Source: Methanolinea sp.
GTDB taxonomy: Archaea > Halobacteriota > Methanomicrobia > Methanomicrobiales > Methanospirillaceae
Direction: 5' to 3'
Assembly (NCBI GenBank): GCA_030055515.1
Contig: JASFYI010000005.1
Coordinates: 1-32,930 of the forward strand
DNA: 32,930 nucleotides
The first letter of the stretch is position 1; each line of letters opens with the position of its first letter. The notes beneath the pieces are model-generated. The model had not been told where the DNA came from and searched no databases. It was given only the letters and a program-made list of their open reading frames with translations. Of this stretch, positions 17,531-32,247 are shown piece after piece. The translations under genes and the position numbers were made by a program.

Positions 17531-18364
17531 TTATCCGGAAGTGAAGCTCACTTCCTTTGCGAGCGTGAACAGCCCGCTCGCGGAGGTGACGTCACTGTAT
17601 GTCACTTCGGTACCTACCGCCGTCGAGTTCCCGAGGCCCTCCTGCAGGCTCGCGGACACGTACGCGCTCGCGGACCCGACTGCACCGGTACTTGGGTCAC
17701 CTTCAGTCTGGTTCACGCCCTCGATCTCGACCGCGTAGTCAAGTGACACCGGCGTGCTCGGGGAATCGGACGTGATCCTCGCGCCGCTCGACGAGGTCAC
17801 CGCTGCCTCGCTCACGACCATGCTCGACCCTGCGACGACGATGTCGTTCGTCGGGGGTATCGCGTCTCCCTCGTTCACGCCCCAAACCGCGTCGCAGCAG
17901 CTCAATCCGGCAGTGCAGCCATTCGCGACCGAGGAGACGAGGATGCTCTCGGACGCGATCATCTTTCCTGTCTCCGTGCCGTCGCCGTTCGTGTCGTAGG
18001 TCATGACCTGCGTGCTCTCGAAGTTGTTGGAGTTCGCGGTCTTCGGCCCGGTGTCGAGGTTCGTGTATTTGTCGTAGGTCACCTCACCCGAGATTGCCAT
18101 CACGTCCTGTTGGTAGCTGATGGTCGACTCACCCTCGCCGCAGCTCTGGTTGAGCGGGGGGTTGTCGCGCAGGTCCTGGTTGCCCTGGACGTAGACGATG
18201 TCGGTGTGGGAATAGAGGTTCCCGATCACCGACGCGGACGTGAGCGTCGTGATCTTCGACGTCTCGTTCGTCGGGGACATGGTCCGCGCGGCGTTCGCGA
18301 GACCAGCCCCCACCGCGAGGAAAACTATCAATATCGCAAAGTAGGCCTGTATCCTCTTTCTCAT
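17531..18364 (-). CDS. Secreted protein, member A of a paralogous surface family
   Basis: 277 residues from ATG at 18364, with AAGGTGG upstream and a TATA box at 18421-18430. Residues 1-25 are a signal peptide (KRIQAYFAILIVFLAVGAGLANA). The mature protein is Ser/Thr/Asp-rich and beta-like, with several Asn-glycosylation sequons. It shares two blocks with the product at 31297-32247: GNQDLRDNPPL (61-71) and LDTGPKTANSNNFESTQ (103-119). Weaker similarity continues to the end (TPVSLDYAVEIEG, SASAYVSASLQEG). No known domain recognised; no C-terminal membrane anchor seen. It is probably exported to the cell surface or medium. Confidence 0.75.
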   Translation of the reverse strand: MRKRIQAYFAILIVFLAVGAGLANAARTMSPTNETSKITTLTSASVIGNLYSHTDIVYVQGNQDLRDNPPLNQSCGEGESTISYQQDVMAISGEVTYDKYTNLDTGPKTANSNNFESTQVMTYDTNGDGTETGKMIASESILVSSVANGCTAGLSCCDAVWGVNEGDAIPPTNDIVVAGSSMVVSEAAVTSSSGARITSDSPSTPVSLDYAVEIEGVNQTEGDPSTGAVGSASAYVSASLQEGLGNSTAVGTEVTYSDVTSASGLFTLAKEVSFTSG

Positions 18365-21544: not shown

Positions 21545-21907
21545 TCAGGCGGCCCCGGGGGCAGGCCTGCCCTCGAGCGCCTGCTTCACCTGGGCCTGGA
21601 GCTGCTCGAACTTGCCCTGGAGGAGGGTCTCCTGTTTCTCGAGTGACTTGATCCGGAGCTCGAGGGTCTCAATCTTCTCGTTCAGCTTCGCGAGGACTTC
21701 CTCCTTCTTCTTCTGCATGAGGACGGACCCGACGCTCATGAAGACGGCGTTCTCGTCCGGGACGTCCTTCAGTTCCTCGGCTGCCCTCTTCGCCTCCCGG
21801 ACCGTGATCTCGTACTGGCTCTTCTGCGCCCCGATTGTCTGCATCTGCTGCTGCATCTGCTGCAGCTGGGCGATCTGGTTCTGGACCTTTGGTGATATGG
21901 TGTTCAT
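21545..21907 (-). CDS. pfdB: Prefoldin beta subunit
   Basis: 120 residues from ATG at 21907. It is a long coiled coil (NQIAQLQQMQQQMQTIGAQK at the start; KIETLELRIKSLEKQETLLQ near the end) around a short beta-hairpin region (DENAVFMSVGSVLMQKKKEE), the classic prefoldin beta layout. With the alpha subunit it forms the jellyfish-shaped hexamer that hands unfolded proteins to the thermosome. It starts 2 nt after the pcc1 stop with GGAGGAG inside pcc1, and is last in the rpl37ae-rpoP-pcc1-pfdB run. Confidence 0.94.
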   Translation of the reverse strand: MNTISPKVQNQIAQLQQMQQQMQTIGAQKSQYEITVREAKRAAEELKDVPDENAVFMSVGSVLMQKKKEEVLAKLNEKIETLELRIKSLEKQETLLQGKFEQLQAQVKQALEGRPAPGAA

Positions 21908-21909
21908 GC

Positions 21910-22164
21910 TCACTCTCCTCCTTCCCGCGGCGCGAACGCCTGCATCTCGTCTGCGACGCTGACCAGGCGCAGCCACATGTTGAGGGATGCACGGAGCGCG
22001 GAGATATCCCTCGCGCGGACCCTCAGCACGATCGTGCGGGAATCCTCGCACGTGCATTCCGCGCGCGACCGGGGATGCACATCTTCCGGGAACTCGGGGG
22101 CGAGTGCCCTGAAGATCGCCTCCGCGTGACGGCTCGTGATCCGGAACGTCGCCTCGTGATCCAC
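21910..22164 (-). CDS. pcc1: KEOPS complex subunit Pcc1
   Basis: 84 residues from GTG at 22164. It has the Pcc1/CTAG fold pattern: an N-terminal strand-helix (HEATFRITSRHAEAIFRALAPE), a middle strand (RTIVLRVRARDISALRASLNMWLRL) and a C-terminal helix. Pcc1 is the small dimerising subunit of KEOPS, which makes N6-threonylcarbamoyladenosine at position 37 of ANN-decoding tRNAs. Position between rpoP and pfdB is the conserved archaeal order and supports the call. Confidence 0.88.
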   Translation of the reverse strand: MDHEATFRITSRHAEAIFRALAPEFPEDVHPRSRAECTCEDSRTIVLRVRARDISALRASLNMWLRLVSVADEMQAFAPREGGE

Positions 22165-22346: not shown

Positions 22347-22481
22347 TCACCGGGCCTTCAAGTCCTTTATCGCCGCGCCGCGTTCCTTGAAGAGGATCCG
22401 GTGCCCGCAGAAGGGACACCTGACGTTCTGCTCTATCTCGACCTTCTGCTTGCACCGGGCACACTTGTAGCTCGCTGCCAT
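22347..22481 (-). CDS. rpoP: RNA polymerase subunit P (Rpo12)
   Basis: 44 residues from ATG at 22481, easy to miss because of its size. The sequence begins [16 protein letters not shown] and has [14 protein letters not shown]: four Cys in two CxxC pairs bind zinc, and RILFKER is the family signature. It is the archaeal counterpart of eukaryotic Rpb12 and helps hold the Rpo3/Rpo10 assembly platform. It follows rpl37ae by 7 nt and precedes pcc1. Confidence 0.94.
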
Positions 22482-22488
22482 CGGGGAC

Positions 22489-22785
22489 TCACTCCCCCGC
22501 ACCCGGCGCGGTCCTGTCTATCGCGCGGAGCGCGACGCGGAGCGCGGGCGTCTGCGGGGTGTACGCACCGCCGGCGAACTTGAACCCGCACTTCCGGCAG
22601 GCCCATATCCCCGTCCCCACCCTCCTCACCGCGACTACCTCGCACCGCGGGCAGGGGTGGGTAGCCCTCGAGATCGCCTCTGTCTCTGCGACCCTCTTCC
22701 GGATGAACCGGCCGTAGCGCGGCCCGAACCGGCCCGCGCTCAGCGTGACCCTTCCCTTCGCCGCCTTCTGCTGTCCGCTGCTCAT
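22489..22785 (-). CDS. rpl37ae: Large-subunit ribosomal protein L37Ae (eL43)
   Basis: 98 residues from ATG at 22785. Family features: [17 protein letters not shown] (18-34), then a zinc ribbon with HPCPRC and WACRKCG pairs and [11 protein letters not shown] near the C-terminus. Normal archaeal length is ~70-95. It is first in the downstream half of the superoperon; a TATA-like ACATTTAAGG (minus, ~22814-22823) in the 57-nt gap after sbds suggests its own promoter. Confidence 0.95.
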
Positions 22786-22842
22786 CTTCTCTTCCCCGAA
22801 TCGTTCTTGGTCCTTAAATGTATGCGGTGTTCCTTCTTATAC

Positions 22843-23538
22843 CTATTCGAGGATCTTCACCTCTCCCTGCCCCTTCGTGAGCCTGTTGACGAGCGAGTAG
22901 AAGTCACCCTGTATCCCGGCCGGGATGCGGACGATGCAGATCCACGACCCGTCCTTCTGCCACTCGTCCCGCTCGATCGTCGCGGCGGACTGGATCTCCC
23001 CAAACGCGCGGGGCGCGAACTCGGCGGGGACCTTCACCGCGATCCTCAGCTCCTCGAACTTGATCGGGAGGATGGGGCGCAGGGCCTTCACGGTCTCCTT
23101 CACGAGTTCCTCGACGCTCTTGTAGAGGTCGATGTTGACCCTCGCCTCCTCCATCGCCATCTCGATCCGCTGGGGAGGGTGGGGGAGCCCTGTCTGGGGA
23201 TTCACGGCATTCCTCGCGATGAAGGCGATGACCTGGCGGCGCTTGCTCTCGATCATCTGCCTCCTCTGCTCCGCGGTGAGCTGGATCTCCCCCTTGCGGA
23301 TGATCTTCGGCGCGATCTCGGAGAAATCGGTCGTCTGGAAGACTTTCTGGAGCGCCTCCTCGGATGCCTTCGTCCCCCGCGACGCGTTGGAGAAGACGTA
23401 GAGGGCTGCCACCATCTCCTCGAGCGGAACGTCCTCCCCCTGCCGGAACTTCACCGCGAGGTCCGGATCGACGAGGATCTCGAACCTCTCGCCGTGGCTC
23501 TCCAGCCTCGCGCAGACCGCCCTCTCGAGGGGTATCAT
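22843..23538 (-). CDS. sdo1: SBDS-family ribosome maturation protein
   Basis: 231 residues from ATG at 23538. The N-terminal FYSH domain is seen in [20 protein letters not shown] and [20 protein letters not shown]. Next comes the three-helix middle domain ([34 protein letters not shown]), then a C-terminal ferredoxin-like domain. SBDS/Sdo1 promotes release of the anti-association factor aIF6 from the large ribosomal subunit. It lies 11 nt after psmA on the same strand. In many archaea rrp4, rrp41 and rrp42 come next; here rpl37ae does. Confidence 0.95.
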
Positions 23539-23549
23539 CCCGCCACCCC

Positions 23550-24275
23550 CTACTTCTCCAGCTTCTCGACGAACGCGGAGACCTCTTCCTTGCTCATCTT
23601 CCTAAACAGGGGTCTCTCCCTCTCGATGACCCCGATCTCCACGGTATTGACGTCGAACTTGCCCTCCGTCGCGTCGTGGAGCGCCTTGATCCCGAGGACG
23701 ATGCAGTCGCTGATCCCCGCATCGTAGTCGTACTCCTCCTCGAAGACCTTCATGACGGCGTTGCGGCCTATCCCTATCCCCGTCGCCTTGTACTCGAGCA
23801 GCGTCCCGCTCGGGTCGGTCTCGAACAGCCTGCTCTCCCCGTCGCTCACGCCCGCGATGAGGAGGGCTGTACCGTACGGCCGCGCACCCCCGAACTGCGT
23901 GTAGGTCTGCATGTGGTCGCCCAGCTTCTTCGCGAGGGCTTCCACGTCGATCGCCTCGTCGTAGGTGAGGCGGTGGATCTGGCACTCGATCCGGGCACGG
24001 TCGACGAGCGCCCTCGCGTCGCCGACGAGCCCCGAGGAGGCTACCCCGATGTGCTCGTCGATCTTGAATATCTTCTCTATCGAGGAGGGCTCGAGGAGCC
24101 GGGAACTGACGCGCTTGTCCACGATCAGCACGACGCCCTCGCGGCACTTGATCCCGACGGCAGTCGTTCCCCTCTTGACCGCTTCCCGGGCATATTCGAC
24201 CTGGTAGAGGCGGCCGTCCGGGCTGAAGACGGTGATCGCCCGGTCATAGCCCATCTGGTATGCCTGTGGTTGCAA
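23550..24275 (-). CDS. psmA: Proteasome subunit alpha
   Basis: 241 residues from TTG at 24275; GGAGG lies 7 nt upstream inside the end of rnp2, which decides this start, and the protein then begins [21 protein letters not shown] as the family does. The [20 protein letters not shown] signature (10-29) and the absence of a catalytic N-terminal Thr identify alpha rather than beta. The outer rings of the 20S proteasome gate substrate entry and bind PAN; the C-terminus is LEK, without a beta-type propeptide. The next ATG (residue 8) would cut the gating N-terminus. Confidence 0.96.
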
Positions 24276-24277
24276 AT

Positions 24278-24763
24278 TTATTCCTCCAGATCCTCGGCTG
24301 TGAGAAACAATGGTTCCTGGCTTTTAAATCCTTTTTCAAATAAATCAACCTTCTCGATCTGGTACCGGATGCACGGAAACGTCCTGCCCCCGAAGCGGGC
24401 TTCCCCGGTCTCGGTCGCGGGGCAGAACGCGCCCTCCCGCACGGCCCTCCGCAGGGCACGCAGCGTCCCGGACGTCCTGACGGGCCGCAGCGCGACTCTC
24501 TGCGACCCGACGCGGTGGACCGTCGCGAGGGCAGCGACGAGCTCCCCCTCCGTTGACCGGACGCAGCGGACGATCGCGTGGCCCGCGCCCGCGGAGATGA
24601 CGGCCGGCTGGATCCGTGCCAGCCCCGCATCGCCGAAGAGGGAGGCCACGGCCTCCGCGACGGCGGCCGAGATGCTGCGGCCGTCGATCTCGGCCCACGG
24701 GGGTTCCACCCGCGAAAGGACGTACCGCTTGTTCTCCCGGAGTGTCGGGGGCAGGGGCCTCAC
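24278..24763 (-). CDS. rnp2: RNase P protein component 2 (Pop5 homologue)
   Basis: 161 residues from GTG at 24763, overlapping the rnp3 stop by 4 nt (GTGA). It begins RPLPPTLRENKRYVLSRV, the Pop5/Rnp2 signature, with a ferredoxin-like core including AIVRCVRSTEGELVAALATV and the SGTLRALRRAV segment. The C-terminal ~45 residues extend past the usual family end. Rnp2 pairs with Rnp3 and the RNase P RNA catalytic domain to mature tRNA 5' ends. Confidence 0.93.
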   Translation of the reverse strand: MRPLPPTLRENKRYVLSRVEPPWAEIDGRSISAAVAEAVASLFGDAGLARIQPAVISAGAGHAIVRCVRSTEGELVAALATVHRVGSQRVALRPVRTSGTLRALRRAVREGAFCPATETGEARFGGRTFPCIRYQIEKVDLFEKGFKSQEPLFLTAEDLEE

Positions 24764-25371
24764 CCGACCACCTCGACGGGACTCTCCGGGAAGAGCAGGG
24801 CCGAGACAGCCCCGAGCGCGGCCCGGACATCCTCGCGGTCGAGGCCGAAGAGGGCCCCGAGGGCCACCATCTCGCGGGGCGACCTCATCCCGAGGACCGA
24901 CCGTGCCCCCGAGGAGAAGGTGAGGGAGAAACCGAACTTCCCCGCGAACCGCGCGATCTCGGCGTACCTCTGGATGGCACGCTGCCGGGCCTGCCCCCGC
25001 TCAAAGACGATGGCCGAGATGTCGATGTCCACGGCGACGCCCTTCTCCGCGGCCAGCCGGGAGAGGACGTGGTCGAAGGAGTTCCTCGGGGCCGACTGGA
25101 TCCCGCGGATGATCCGGACGTGCCCCGACTGGATGAGCGCCCTGTTCCCCGCGTAGTCGGTTGCCTGCGCCGCGACGAGCGCCCGATTACCACAACTCCC
25201 GCCGCGGCCGTGCACCGAGAGCGGGATCACCTCGATCCCCGCGACGTTCCCCCCCGCGGGCACGGCCGCGACGATGCTGTCAAAACCGAGTTCGCGGGCC
25301 GTGAGCGCCATCCTCCGGAGGGAGGAGTCCCCGGCGGGATACGGGTAGACGCAGGCGTCCGTGCAGCGCAT
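24760..25371 (-). CDS. rnp3: RNase P protein component 3 (Rpp30 homologue)
   Basis: 203 residues from ATG at 25371. It has a PHP-like TIM-barrel of the Rpp30 family: CTDACVYPYP (3-12), ELGFDSIVAAVP, a GNRALIQSGHVRIIRGIQSA segment, VDIDISAIV and SGARSVLGMRSPREMVALGALFGL near the end. With Rnp2 it forms the heterotetramer that activates RNase P RNA. It follows rpl15e by 34 nt and overlaps rnp2 by 4 nt. Confidence 0.94.
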   Translation of the reverse strand: MRCTDACVYPYPAGDSSLRRMALTARELGFDSIVAAVPAGGNVAGIEVIPLSVHGRGGSCGNRALVAAQATDYAGNRALIQSGHVRIIRGIQSAPRNSFDHVLSRLAAEKGVAVDIDISAIVFERGQARQRAIQRYAEIARFAGKFGFSLTFSSGARSVLGMRSPREMVALGALFGLDREDVRAALGAVSALLFPESPVEVVG

Positions 25372-25405: not shown

Positions 25406-25996
25406 TTATTTGCCGATATTCCCGTGCGACCGGATGCTCGGCCGGGTCTTCTCGGTCCCGCGCCCGCGCCTGCGCATGCCCCTGCCCTTCATGCCCGCGC
25501 TCGTCTTGCCGCGTTCCGCGCGGCCCCGGTGGACGGGATCAGCGAGCCACGAGAGGTGCGGATCGCTCCGGATCGCGGGGTGGTGGCCGTCGACGAGGAT
25601 GACCTCGTACCACTTGTGGCGCCCGTCCTGCCCGACCCAGTAGGAGTTGAGGACCTCCATGTTCGGGTACCTGCGGGACGCCCTCTCCTCTGCCATCCTC
25701 TGGAGGCTCTTTGCGGGCGTGACCCTGTTGACGCCCATCCTTATGGACCGCCGGGCCCTGACGTACCGGGACTTCCGCCTCCCCCCGCGGCGGACCTTCA
25801 CCCTCACCACGACGATGCCCTGCTTTGCCTTGTACCCGAGGTTCCGGGCCCTGTCGATCCGCGTCGGCCTCTCGATCCGGACCACGCTCCCCTCGCGCCG
25901 CCACTTCTGCATCCTCTCCCAGAGGAGGTCGCCGACACCGGTCTCCTCGGGCCTCTTCCATGCCTCCCTCACGAAGGCGTACATCGAACGTGCCAT
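25406..25996 (-). CDS. rpl15e: Large-subunit ribosomal protein L15e (eL15)
   Basis: 196 residues from ATG at 25996, giving the family start [21 protein letters not shown] precedes it. The frame runs open to 26065, but that part lacks homology. Basic throughout, with [58 protein letters not shown] and a C-terminal [16 protein letters not shown]. It is first in the superoperon; a CATATAGG box (minus, ~26069-26076) lies upstream. Confidence 0.95.
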
Positions 25997-28190: not shown

Positions 28191-29588
28191 ATGAGTCTCC
28201 TCGATGACGCCCGCGAGGTCGCGAGGGAGATCCTCGCGCACCACGAGGTGACCGTCATCTCCCACATCGACGCGGACGGGATCGCGGGGGAGGCGATCCT
28301 CGCCCAGGCCCTCTCCCGCGCCGGGATCCCCCACAGGTCCGTCTTCGTCCGGCAGCTCGAACCCCTCACCATGACGCAGGTCCCCGCGGACGACAGCCTC
28401 AAGGTCTTCTGCGACCTCGGCGCCGGGCAGCAGAACCTCCTCCTCGAGAAGGGTCTCTCAGGGGACGAAGTGGTCATCATCGACCACCACGTGAGCCAGC
28501 CGTGCGGGAGGGACTACCTGCAGGCAAACGCGCTCCACCACGGGCACCACAAGATGAGCGCGGCGGGGGTCGCGTACCTCGTCGCGTGCGCGATGGACAC
28601 GGCGAACACGGACCTCTCGAAACTCGCCGTCGTGGGCAACGTCGGGGACATGATGGCGCGCGAGGACTGCGGGCTCGTCGGTCCCGCCCGCGAGATCGCC
28701 GTCGAGGGCGCGGAGGGCGGGTGGATCGAGATCGTCCCCCGCGACCTGAACTGCTACGGGACCTCGACGCGGCCGCTCCACGTCTGCCTCGCGTTCAGCG
28801 ACGACCCCTACATCCCGGGCATCTCCAACAACACGGCAGGCGCTCTCCGGTTCCTCCAGAGGCTGGGAATCGAGCTCCAGACGCCGGAGAAGAGGTGGCG
28901 CGTCTGGGAAGAGCTCCTGCCGGACGAAAAGAGGCTCGTTCTGAGTGCGCTCGCGCAGCAGCTGATGGCCTGCGGCGAACCCGTCGACCGGCTCTTCTCG
29001 GAGAGCTACCTCTTCCCCGGCGAGGTGGAGAGGACGCCGCTCCGGAACGCGCAGGAGTTCGCGACGCTCCTCAACGCGTGCGGCCGGTGGATGCGCCCCT
29101 CGGTGGGGGGTGCGATCTGCCGCGGGGACAGGGGGGAGGCCTTCCGGCAGGCAGAGCACATGCTCATGAACCACCGCGCGGTCATCCGCGACCTCCTCGA
29201 GTACATCCTCTCGCGGGGGGTGAAGGAGCTCTCCCACATCCAGTACATCCACCTCGGCGACAGGTACCCCGACACGATCGTGGGGATAGGGGCGGGGATG
29301 GCCCTCTCCCGCCTGAACCCGGAGAAGCCCATCCTCGTCATGGTGGAACTGCCCGAGGACCCGACGCAGACGAAGGCCTCGATGCGCACGACGGAGCGGG
29401 TGGTCTCGCGGGGGATCGACCTCCAGCAGGCCATGGCCATCGCCGCGGCGGAGGTCGGGGGCGCGGGGGGAGGGCACAGGATCGCGGCGGGAGCGTACAT
29501 CCCGAGGGAATCGGAGGAGAGGTTTGTCGCGAGGATCGACGCGCTCGTCGGAGAGCAGCTCGCTTGCGCGCGTCAGGGCGATCGCTGA
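28191..29588 (+). CDS. RecJ-like DHH-family exonuclease (archaeal, GAN/Cdc45 relative)
   Basis: 465 residues from ATG at 28191. DHH-domain motifs: VISHIDADGIAG (22-33), VFCDLGAG (72-79), IIDHH (96-100) and a GNVGDMM segment. The C-terminal DHHA1-type end has AAEVGGAGGGHRIAAGAYIP. This is the archaeal single-stranded-DNA/RNA exonuclease family related to bacterial RecJ and eukaryotic Cdc45; members associate with the GINS/replisome or act in repair. It is divergent from nnrDE and overlaps the next gene by 65 nt. Confidence 0.9.
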   Translation: MSLLDDAREVAREILAHHEVTVISHIDADGIAGEAILAQALSRAGIPHRSVFVRQLEPLTMTQVPADDSLKVFCDLGAGQQNLLLEKGLSGDEVVIIDHHVSQPCGRDYLQANALHHGHHKMSAAGVAYLVACAMDTANTDLSKLAVVGNVGDMMAREDCGLVGPAREIAVEGAEGGWIEIVPRDLNCYGTSTRPLHVCLAFSDDPYIPGISNNTAGALRFLQRLGIELQTPEKRWRVWEELLPDEKRLVLSALAQQLMACGEPVDRLFSESYLFPGEVERTPLRNAQEFATLLNACGRWMRPSVGGAICRGDRGEAFRQAEHMLMNHRAVIRDLLEYILSRGVKELSHIQYIHLGDRYPDTIVGIGAGMALSRLNPEKPILVMVELPEDPTQTKASMRTTERVVSRGIDLQQAMAIAAAEVGGAGGGHRIAAGAYIPRESEERFVARIDALVGEQLACARQGDR

Positions 29589-31225: not shown

Positions 31226-31296
31226 TTCTTATGCTCCTGTCACCAAAAAGACTGGTTGATGCTGAGAGTATCAGCATGAAATGTAGGAGGAAAAAA
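31226..31296 (+). promoter_or_regulatory. Promoter and hairpin leader of secreted family member B
   Basis: A weak TATA-like TTCTTATGC (31226-31234) predicts a start near 31255. The leader then holds a perfect 7-bp hairpin, ATGCTGA (31259-31265) with TCAGCAT (31271-31277), just ahead of the strong AGGAGG ribosome site (31285-31290). The hairpin at the very 5' end could stabilise a highly expressed mRNA. Confidence 0.45.
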
Positions 31297-32247
31297 ATGA
31301 AGAAGTTCGCAATTGCGGTCATCGCACTCGCCGTCCTCGCCGTGGGAATGGCAATGGCGGTCGACCCCATCCCGCCGACTGCGGAGACGCAGGGCATCTC
31401 GACGACGACTGCGGTCACGTGCGTGGGCACTGTCACGAACACTGAGACTGTTGTCTGGACGACGAGCAACCAGGATCTCAGGAACAACCCGCCGCTGACA
31501 GAATACTGGCCAAACTATCAGCTGAACACCACGACAGGTGCTATTGAAACCGGTGATCCCAATTTCACGTGGCAGCCAGAGAGGCAGGCAGTGCTGTCCT
31601 ACACCGAGTCCATCATCGCTGACAACGGCTACACCGAGTTCAACGAGATGCAGTCCGTAGACACCGGTGCAAAGACCGCGAACCAGAAGAACTTTGCATC
31701 GACCGAGCAGTTTGACTTCGTCGCGTCCGAGTCCGCGATGGGCAGGCTGACGTTCTCCGAGAGCATGCTCCTTGACCTCGCGAGCCAGGGATCCGACGCG
31801 ACGGAGAGGTTCATCTGCCCGTTCGCGACCGGTGACCAGGGATACATCCCGGCGTACTGCAACGTCTACGAGATGGGCAGCTCGTTCACCGGAACCGCCG
31901 TGACTGCAATCGCGCAGGCGGGCGAGAACCACATCGCGAAGGCGGCTGACGTCCCGACGCAGCTCAGCTACTCCATCGGTCTCACCGGGCAGGGCAGCGC
32001 CGCTGCATGGTTGAACGCACACGTCATGGAGGGCAGGACCGGTGTCGTCCTCGGTGAGGATGAAGCGGAGGATGTCTTGGTAGGCGGAAAGACATATGAC
32101 CGTGTCATCGTCAACCCCGACAGACGTACACTCATGGACTTCATGCAGGGCGTTGACCTCGTGTACAAGGAGAAGACCACTGCATCTGGCACCATCGCGT
32201 CCTTCAGCAAGTCCATAAGCATCCAGGACGCGGTCAGGCGCCTGTAA
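31297..32247 (+). CDS. Secreted protein, member B of a paralogous surface family
   Basis: 316 residues from ATG at 31297, after AGGAGG at 31285-31290 (upstream in-frame Met codons have no such site). Residues 1-21 are a signal peptide (KKFAIAVIALAVLAVGMAMA). It shares SNQDLRNNPPL (57-67) and VDTGAKTANQKNFASTE (121-137) with the product at 17531-18364, plus a weaker match to the end (TQLSYSIGLTG, SAAAWLNAHVMEG, TIASFSKSISIQ). Mature part is Thr/Ser/Ala-rich and likely beta-rich. No anchor, known enzyme motif or S-layer domain is recognised. Its strong ribosome site and good terminator suggest high expression. Confidence 0.78.
   Translation: MKKFAIAVIALAVLAVGMAMAVDPIPPTAETQGISTTTAVTCVGTVTNTETVVWTTSNQDLRNNPPLTEYWPNYQLNTTTGAIETGDPNFTWQPERQAVLSYTESIIADNGYTEFNEMQSVDTGAKTANQKNFASTEQFDFVASESAMGRLTFSESMLLDLASQGSDATERFICPFATGDQGYIPAYCNVYEMGSSFTGTAVTAIAQAGENHIAKAADVPTQLSYSIGLTGQGSAAAWLNAHVMEGRTGVVLGEDEAEDVLVGGKTYDRVIVNPDRRTLMDFMQGVDLVYKEKTTASGTIASFSKSISIQDAVRRL

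Follow-up and report, generated by a model that had tools for sequence, protein, structure and literature searches.

A 57-bp sbds-rpl37ae junction where relatives carry exosome genes, and candidate replacement nucleases in an exosome-less class of methanogens

In eukaryotes and most archaea, the exosome is the core machine for 3'-5' RNA decay, and lineages that lost it therefore show what can replace it. In the archaeal exosome-proteasome-translation superoperon (Koonin, Wolf and Aravind 2001, as cited in PMC8481954), the exosome genes rrp4, rrp41, and rrp42 are joined to genes that we also find in the genome studied here, in the same order on both sides of a site from which those three are missing. 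Loss of the exosome in Methanomicrobiales and Halobacteria has already been published (PMC8481954); it is the same loss as the one described below and covers the whole clade, and the relevant section of that paper deals with presence and absence and does not describe this junction. Two systems of Haloferax volcanii offer the closest comparisons for what may take over. Its RNase R (PMC12320835, PMC10470531) also has an RNB domain and few accessory domains, and H. volcanii likewise lacks an exosome. Its RecJ3/4-aRNase J complex has been put forward as taking over the exosome's function in haloarchaea and certain methanogens that lack it (PMC10470531), and genes for aRNase J and RecJ-family proteins are present in our genome.

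We analyzed a stretch of 32,930 nucleotides from a Methanolinea sp. contig (hereafter the window). The source genome is 1.76 Mb long, 99.1% complete, and encodes mcrA, as expected of a methanogen.

The sbds-rpl37ae junction in the window and in relatives

Both flanks of the superoperon (psmA-sbds and rpl37ae-rpo12-pcc1-pfdB) lie on one strand of the window. With Pfam and NCBIfam models, the minus-strand order reads rpl15e, rnp3, rnp2, psmA, sbds, a gap of 57 bp, rpl37ae, rpo12, pcc1, and pfdB. Before the gap are rpl15e (25406-25996; PF00827), the RNase P genes rnp3 (p30, 24760-25371; PF01876) and rnp2 (Rpp14/Pop5 family, 24278-24763; PF01900), the proteasome alpha subunit gene psmA (23550-24275; PF00227 and PF10584), and sbds (22843-23538; Pfam SBDS domains, TIGR00291 at 321 bits). 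After it come rpl37ae (22489-22785; PF01780, with NF003058 over its cut-off), rpo12 or rpoP, encoding the 44-aa RNA polymerase subunit P (22347-22481; NCBIfam NF001606 at 87.8 bits, over its cut-off), pcc1 (21910-22164; PF09341), and the prefoldin beta gene pfdB (21545-21907; PF01920). The start codon of psmA is apparently TTG. Elsewhere in the window, exported-looking proteins at 17531-18364 (minus strand) and 31231-32247 (plus strand) have a stretch like NQDLRNNPPL in common and may be paralogues.

With the TAG stop codon of sbds at 22843-22845 and the ATG of rpl37ae starting at 22785, the gap between them is exactly 57 bp (22786-22842, minus strand). No rrp4-rrp41-rrp42 block was found between sbds and rpl37ae in the window, and the 57 bp hold no gene at all. 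Elsewhere in the phylum, 14 loci that carry the exosome have the same flanking genes but 2.1-2.7 kb between them, a span that contains three open frames. Pfam was run on two of these loci and identified the products as Rrp4 (ECR1_N, S1, and KH domains) and two RNase_PH proteins (Rrp41 and Rrp42). Because sbds and rpl37ae are neighbors in the order of the source genome and have rrp4-rrp41-rrp42 between them in these relatives, what is missing is precisely this block, and both flanks are retained. The gap measures 42-72 bp in nearly all of the ~30 junctions read from the order, and its shortness is neither chance nor local to the source genome. These results agree with the original prediction in the order of all the genes that it named, in the length of the gap, and in the usual place of rrp4, rrp41, and rrp42. 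Its description of the junction as an excision point holds in that this is the site of the exosome genes in relatives, but what we see is the state of a whole class rather than an event of this genome.

The neighborhood can also be broken differently. In three loci of haloarchaeal type (L121, L122, and L123), rpl37ae does not come after sbds, and in L121 sbds is followed by proteins reading as rps13, rps4, rps11, and rpoD.

A proposed promoter before rpl37ae

It had initially been suggested that the gap may contain a new promoter for the downstream half of the superoperon, marked by the TATA-like ACATTTAAGG (22812-22821, minus strand); this sequence occurs only twice in the 1.76-Mb genome. A promoter-like pattern is indeed present at the junction, but its parts are probably arranged differently. 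In 26 of 31 distinct junctions, GAC[AC] stands at -30 to -18 relative to the start of rpl37ae, compared with a mean of 2.6 and a maximum of 8 in 1000 shuffles. Across these 31 junctions, which are related sequences, TATA-like 8-mers that are individually weak (5 of 8 positions matched) show a peak: they start 29-33 nt before the conserved GAC, a distance that matches archaeal promoters. Because a box at this distance would fall at the end of sbds, ACATTTAAGG is probably no TATA box, and we judge it unlikely in that role from the spacing. We propose instead that GTATAAGA (22835-22842, minus strand), directly after the sbds stop, is the likelier TATA box of an rpl37ae promoter. The conserved GAC looks like the transcription start; ACATTTAAGG would then be an AT-rich stretch just before it, and the AT-rich ACATTTAAGGAC (22810-22821, minus strand) runs into this GAC. 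A leader beginning there would be long enough to contain the Shine-Dalgarno-like GGGG that precedes rpl37ae (22794-22797, minus strand), where most junctions have a G-rich run near -12. Two loci that do carry the exosome (L127 and L128) also have AT-rich elements ahead of rpl37ae, so a promoter at this position need not be new.

The gap could instead hold no promoter: transcription from upstream would then run on into rpl37ae, and the conserved bases would serve translation only. Such an account would fit the closeness and shared direction of the genes, the translation signal formed by the run near -12, and the weakness of the matches to the TATA consensus. Still, we find it somewhat less likely than not, given that the conserved GAC lies at a fixed distance and is preceded by the TATA-like peak across the 31 junctions.

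Candidate replacement nucleases

The original prediction raised the question of which nuclease replaces the exosome, and a search of the source genome returned candidates of four kinds. An RNB-domain protein (match at C1:94243-95238; locus L142:3935-5575) scored 275 bits against PF00773 and 68 bits against the C-terminal S1 family PF18614. An aRNase J exceeded its family cut-off (aRNase J was present in 100 of the 100 members of the order searched), and a 630-aa beta-CASP protein looks like aCPSF1. There are also several DHH/RecJ-family genes. One lies near the superoperon, on the plus strand of the window (28191-29588; NF053576 RecJ_archaeal at 540 bits, over its cut-off, with DHH, DHH-CID, and DHHA1 domains). 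Several relatives likewise have a DHH gene ~5-6 kb from sbds. We regard the RecJ-family protein at 28191-29588 as a candidate for part of RNA 3'-end decay, and the bacterial-type RNB protein as a candidate that may stand in for the exosome in most members.

The RNB protein belongs to a different subfamily from H. volcanii RNase R. Against the RNB protein of the source genome, other class members scored 617-878 bits and family f14, a family of exosome-bearing methanogens, scored 505-515 bits, compared with 64-90 bits for families of haloarchaeal type. In a maximum-likelihood tree, whose root is not fixed, the haloarchaeal proteins fall beyond very long branches in a separate clade on a long, fully supported branch, and the class proteins lie outside the bacterial group (branch length 1.04, support 96/100). 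The motif differs as well, being of DFDD type in H. volcanii RNase R and DLDQ in all 48 aligned members of the subfamily found here (12 from the class, 2 from f14, and 34 bacterial). Scores, tree, and motif together rule out a common origin with haloarchaeal RNB. Descent of the class protein from f14 is unsupported, as the f14 proteins nest within bacterial sequences. Family f14 (genomes G239 and G248) carries both an exosome block (L124, L125) and an RNB protein (L138, L139), the latter 60-72% identical to bacterial ones and apparently the product of a separate transfer. We found no description in the literature of a bacterial-type, Gln-bearing RNB distinct from haloarchaeal RNase R.

The DLDQ subfamily keeps the equivalents of Asp201, Asp207, and Asp209 of E. 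coli RNase II and has Gln at the equivalent of Asp210, so that the protein of the source genome has three of the four active-site aspartates. Asp209 is the most critical residue (PMC3293843), and the equivalents of Asp201 and Asp210 are magnesium ligands (PMC12320835). Because Gln replaces a metal-binding aspartate, it is not certain that this RNB is active.

This substitution lends some weight to another account, in which a RecJ-aRNase J complex, as proposed for H. volcanii, would be the stand-in and RNB would be secondary or inactive. DHH/RecJ-family genes were present in 16 of 16 genomes tested, including those without RNB, which together with the general presence of aRNase J is consistent with such a role, and the published co-occurrence extends to certain exosome-less methanogens (PMC10470531). 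However, DHH proteins also occur in exosome-bearing relatives, our RecJ-family assignments do not separate RecJ3 or RecJ4 from other RecJ proteins, and the critical Asp209 equivalent is kept in RNB. Judging from these gene contents and residues, a RecJ-aRNase J stand-in strikes us as possible but somewhat unlikely, and RNB may be the replacement in most members.

Extent of the loss and its possible consequences

Profile searches for RNase_PH (PF01138) returned no match in the 150 genomes searched from the order, nor in the 232 from the class (of which 135 are of good quality), the source genome included. RNase_PH was present in 155 of 247 genomes of the phylum and in 12 of 14 control genomes, the positives ranging from bacteria to Sulfolobus and including Methanosarcina acetivorans. 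None of 100 genomes of the order had the ECR1_N domain of Rrp4 and Csl4 either, whereas both controls, Sulfolobus and M. acetivorans, gave matches. Exosome genes elsewhere in the genome, which would have pointed to relocation, were thus missing, and the searches of the source genome, the order (RNase_PH and ECR1_N), and the class (RNase_PH) largely rule out relocation in favor of loss. That the genes moved or diverged past recognition is highly improbable given the class-wide absence of RNase_PH with positive controls and the missing Rrp4/Csl4 domain, even though these were profile searches only and ~1% of the source genome may be unassembled. Given the absence across the whole class and the published loss (PMC8481954), the headline is already known: loss of the exosome is a class-wide state and not an event of the source genome alone.

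RNB is less evenly distributed than this absence. Of the 150 genomes searched from the order, 108 gave a match, including that of our Methanolinea; among the 109 of good quality, 90 did so. By contrast, the listed members of one genus (g24, family f6) have neither RNB nor RNase_PH and keep aRNase J and DHH proteins. Two of them (G042 and G054) are single-contig genomes of 98% completeness with neither domain. The control genome of Methanocaldococcus jannaschii also matched neither model, so a double absence is not unheard of. We found no literature describing a genus of this order that has neither exosome nor RNB.

Taken together, we consider it very probable that the 57-bp junction is the collapsed rrp4-rrp41-rrp42 site, that the exosome was lost in the class ancestor, and that other nucleases now act on RNA 3' ends, with a separate promoter for rpl37ae. 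The ancestor of this class of methanogens (probably the Methanomicrobiales of published taxonomy) would have lost the phosphorolytic exosome, after which sbds and rpl37ae would have become neighbors, separated by a short region with promoter-like and ribosome-binding features. The rpl37ae half would have its own promoter, with the TATA box at 22835-22842. The nucleases that would now handle RNA 3' ends are, in most members, chiefly the RNB exoribonuclease of bacterial type and, alongside it, aRNase J, aCPSF1, and RecJ-family proteins.

More tentatively, and in a reading that could nearly as well hold as fail, two exosome-less archaeal lineages may each have taken up a different RNB. The one in this class would be an unusual nuclease or else a pseudo-nuclease that binds RNA, and in the genus with neither exosome nor RNB, enzymes of the RecJ and aRNase J type would carry out 3'-end decay.

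To the known loss, this analysis adds a phylum-wide comparison of the exact junction, a proposed promoter whose elements are better placed, and a characterization of the candidate nuclease. Because the candidate replacement differs from the haloarchaeal one and is absent in one genus, these lineages provide natural comparisons for which enzyme does the work.
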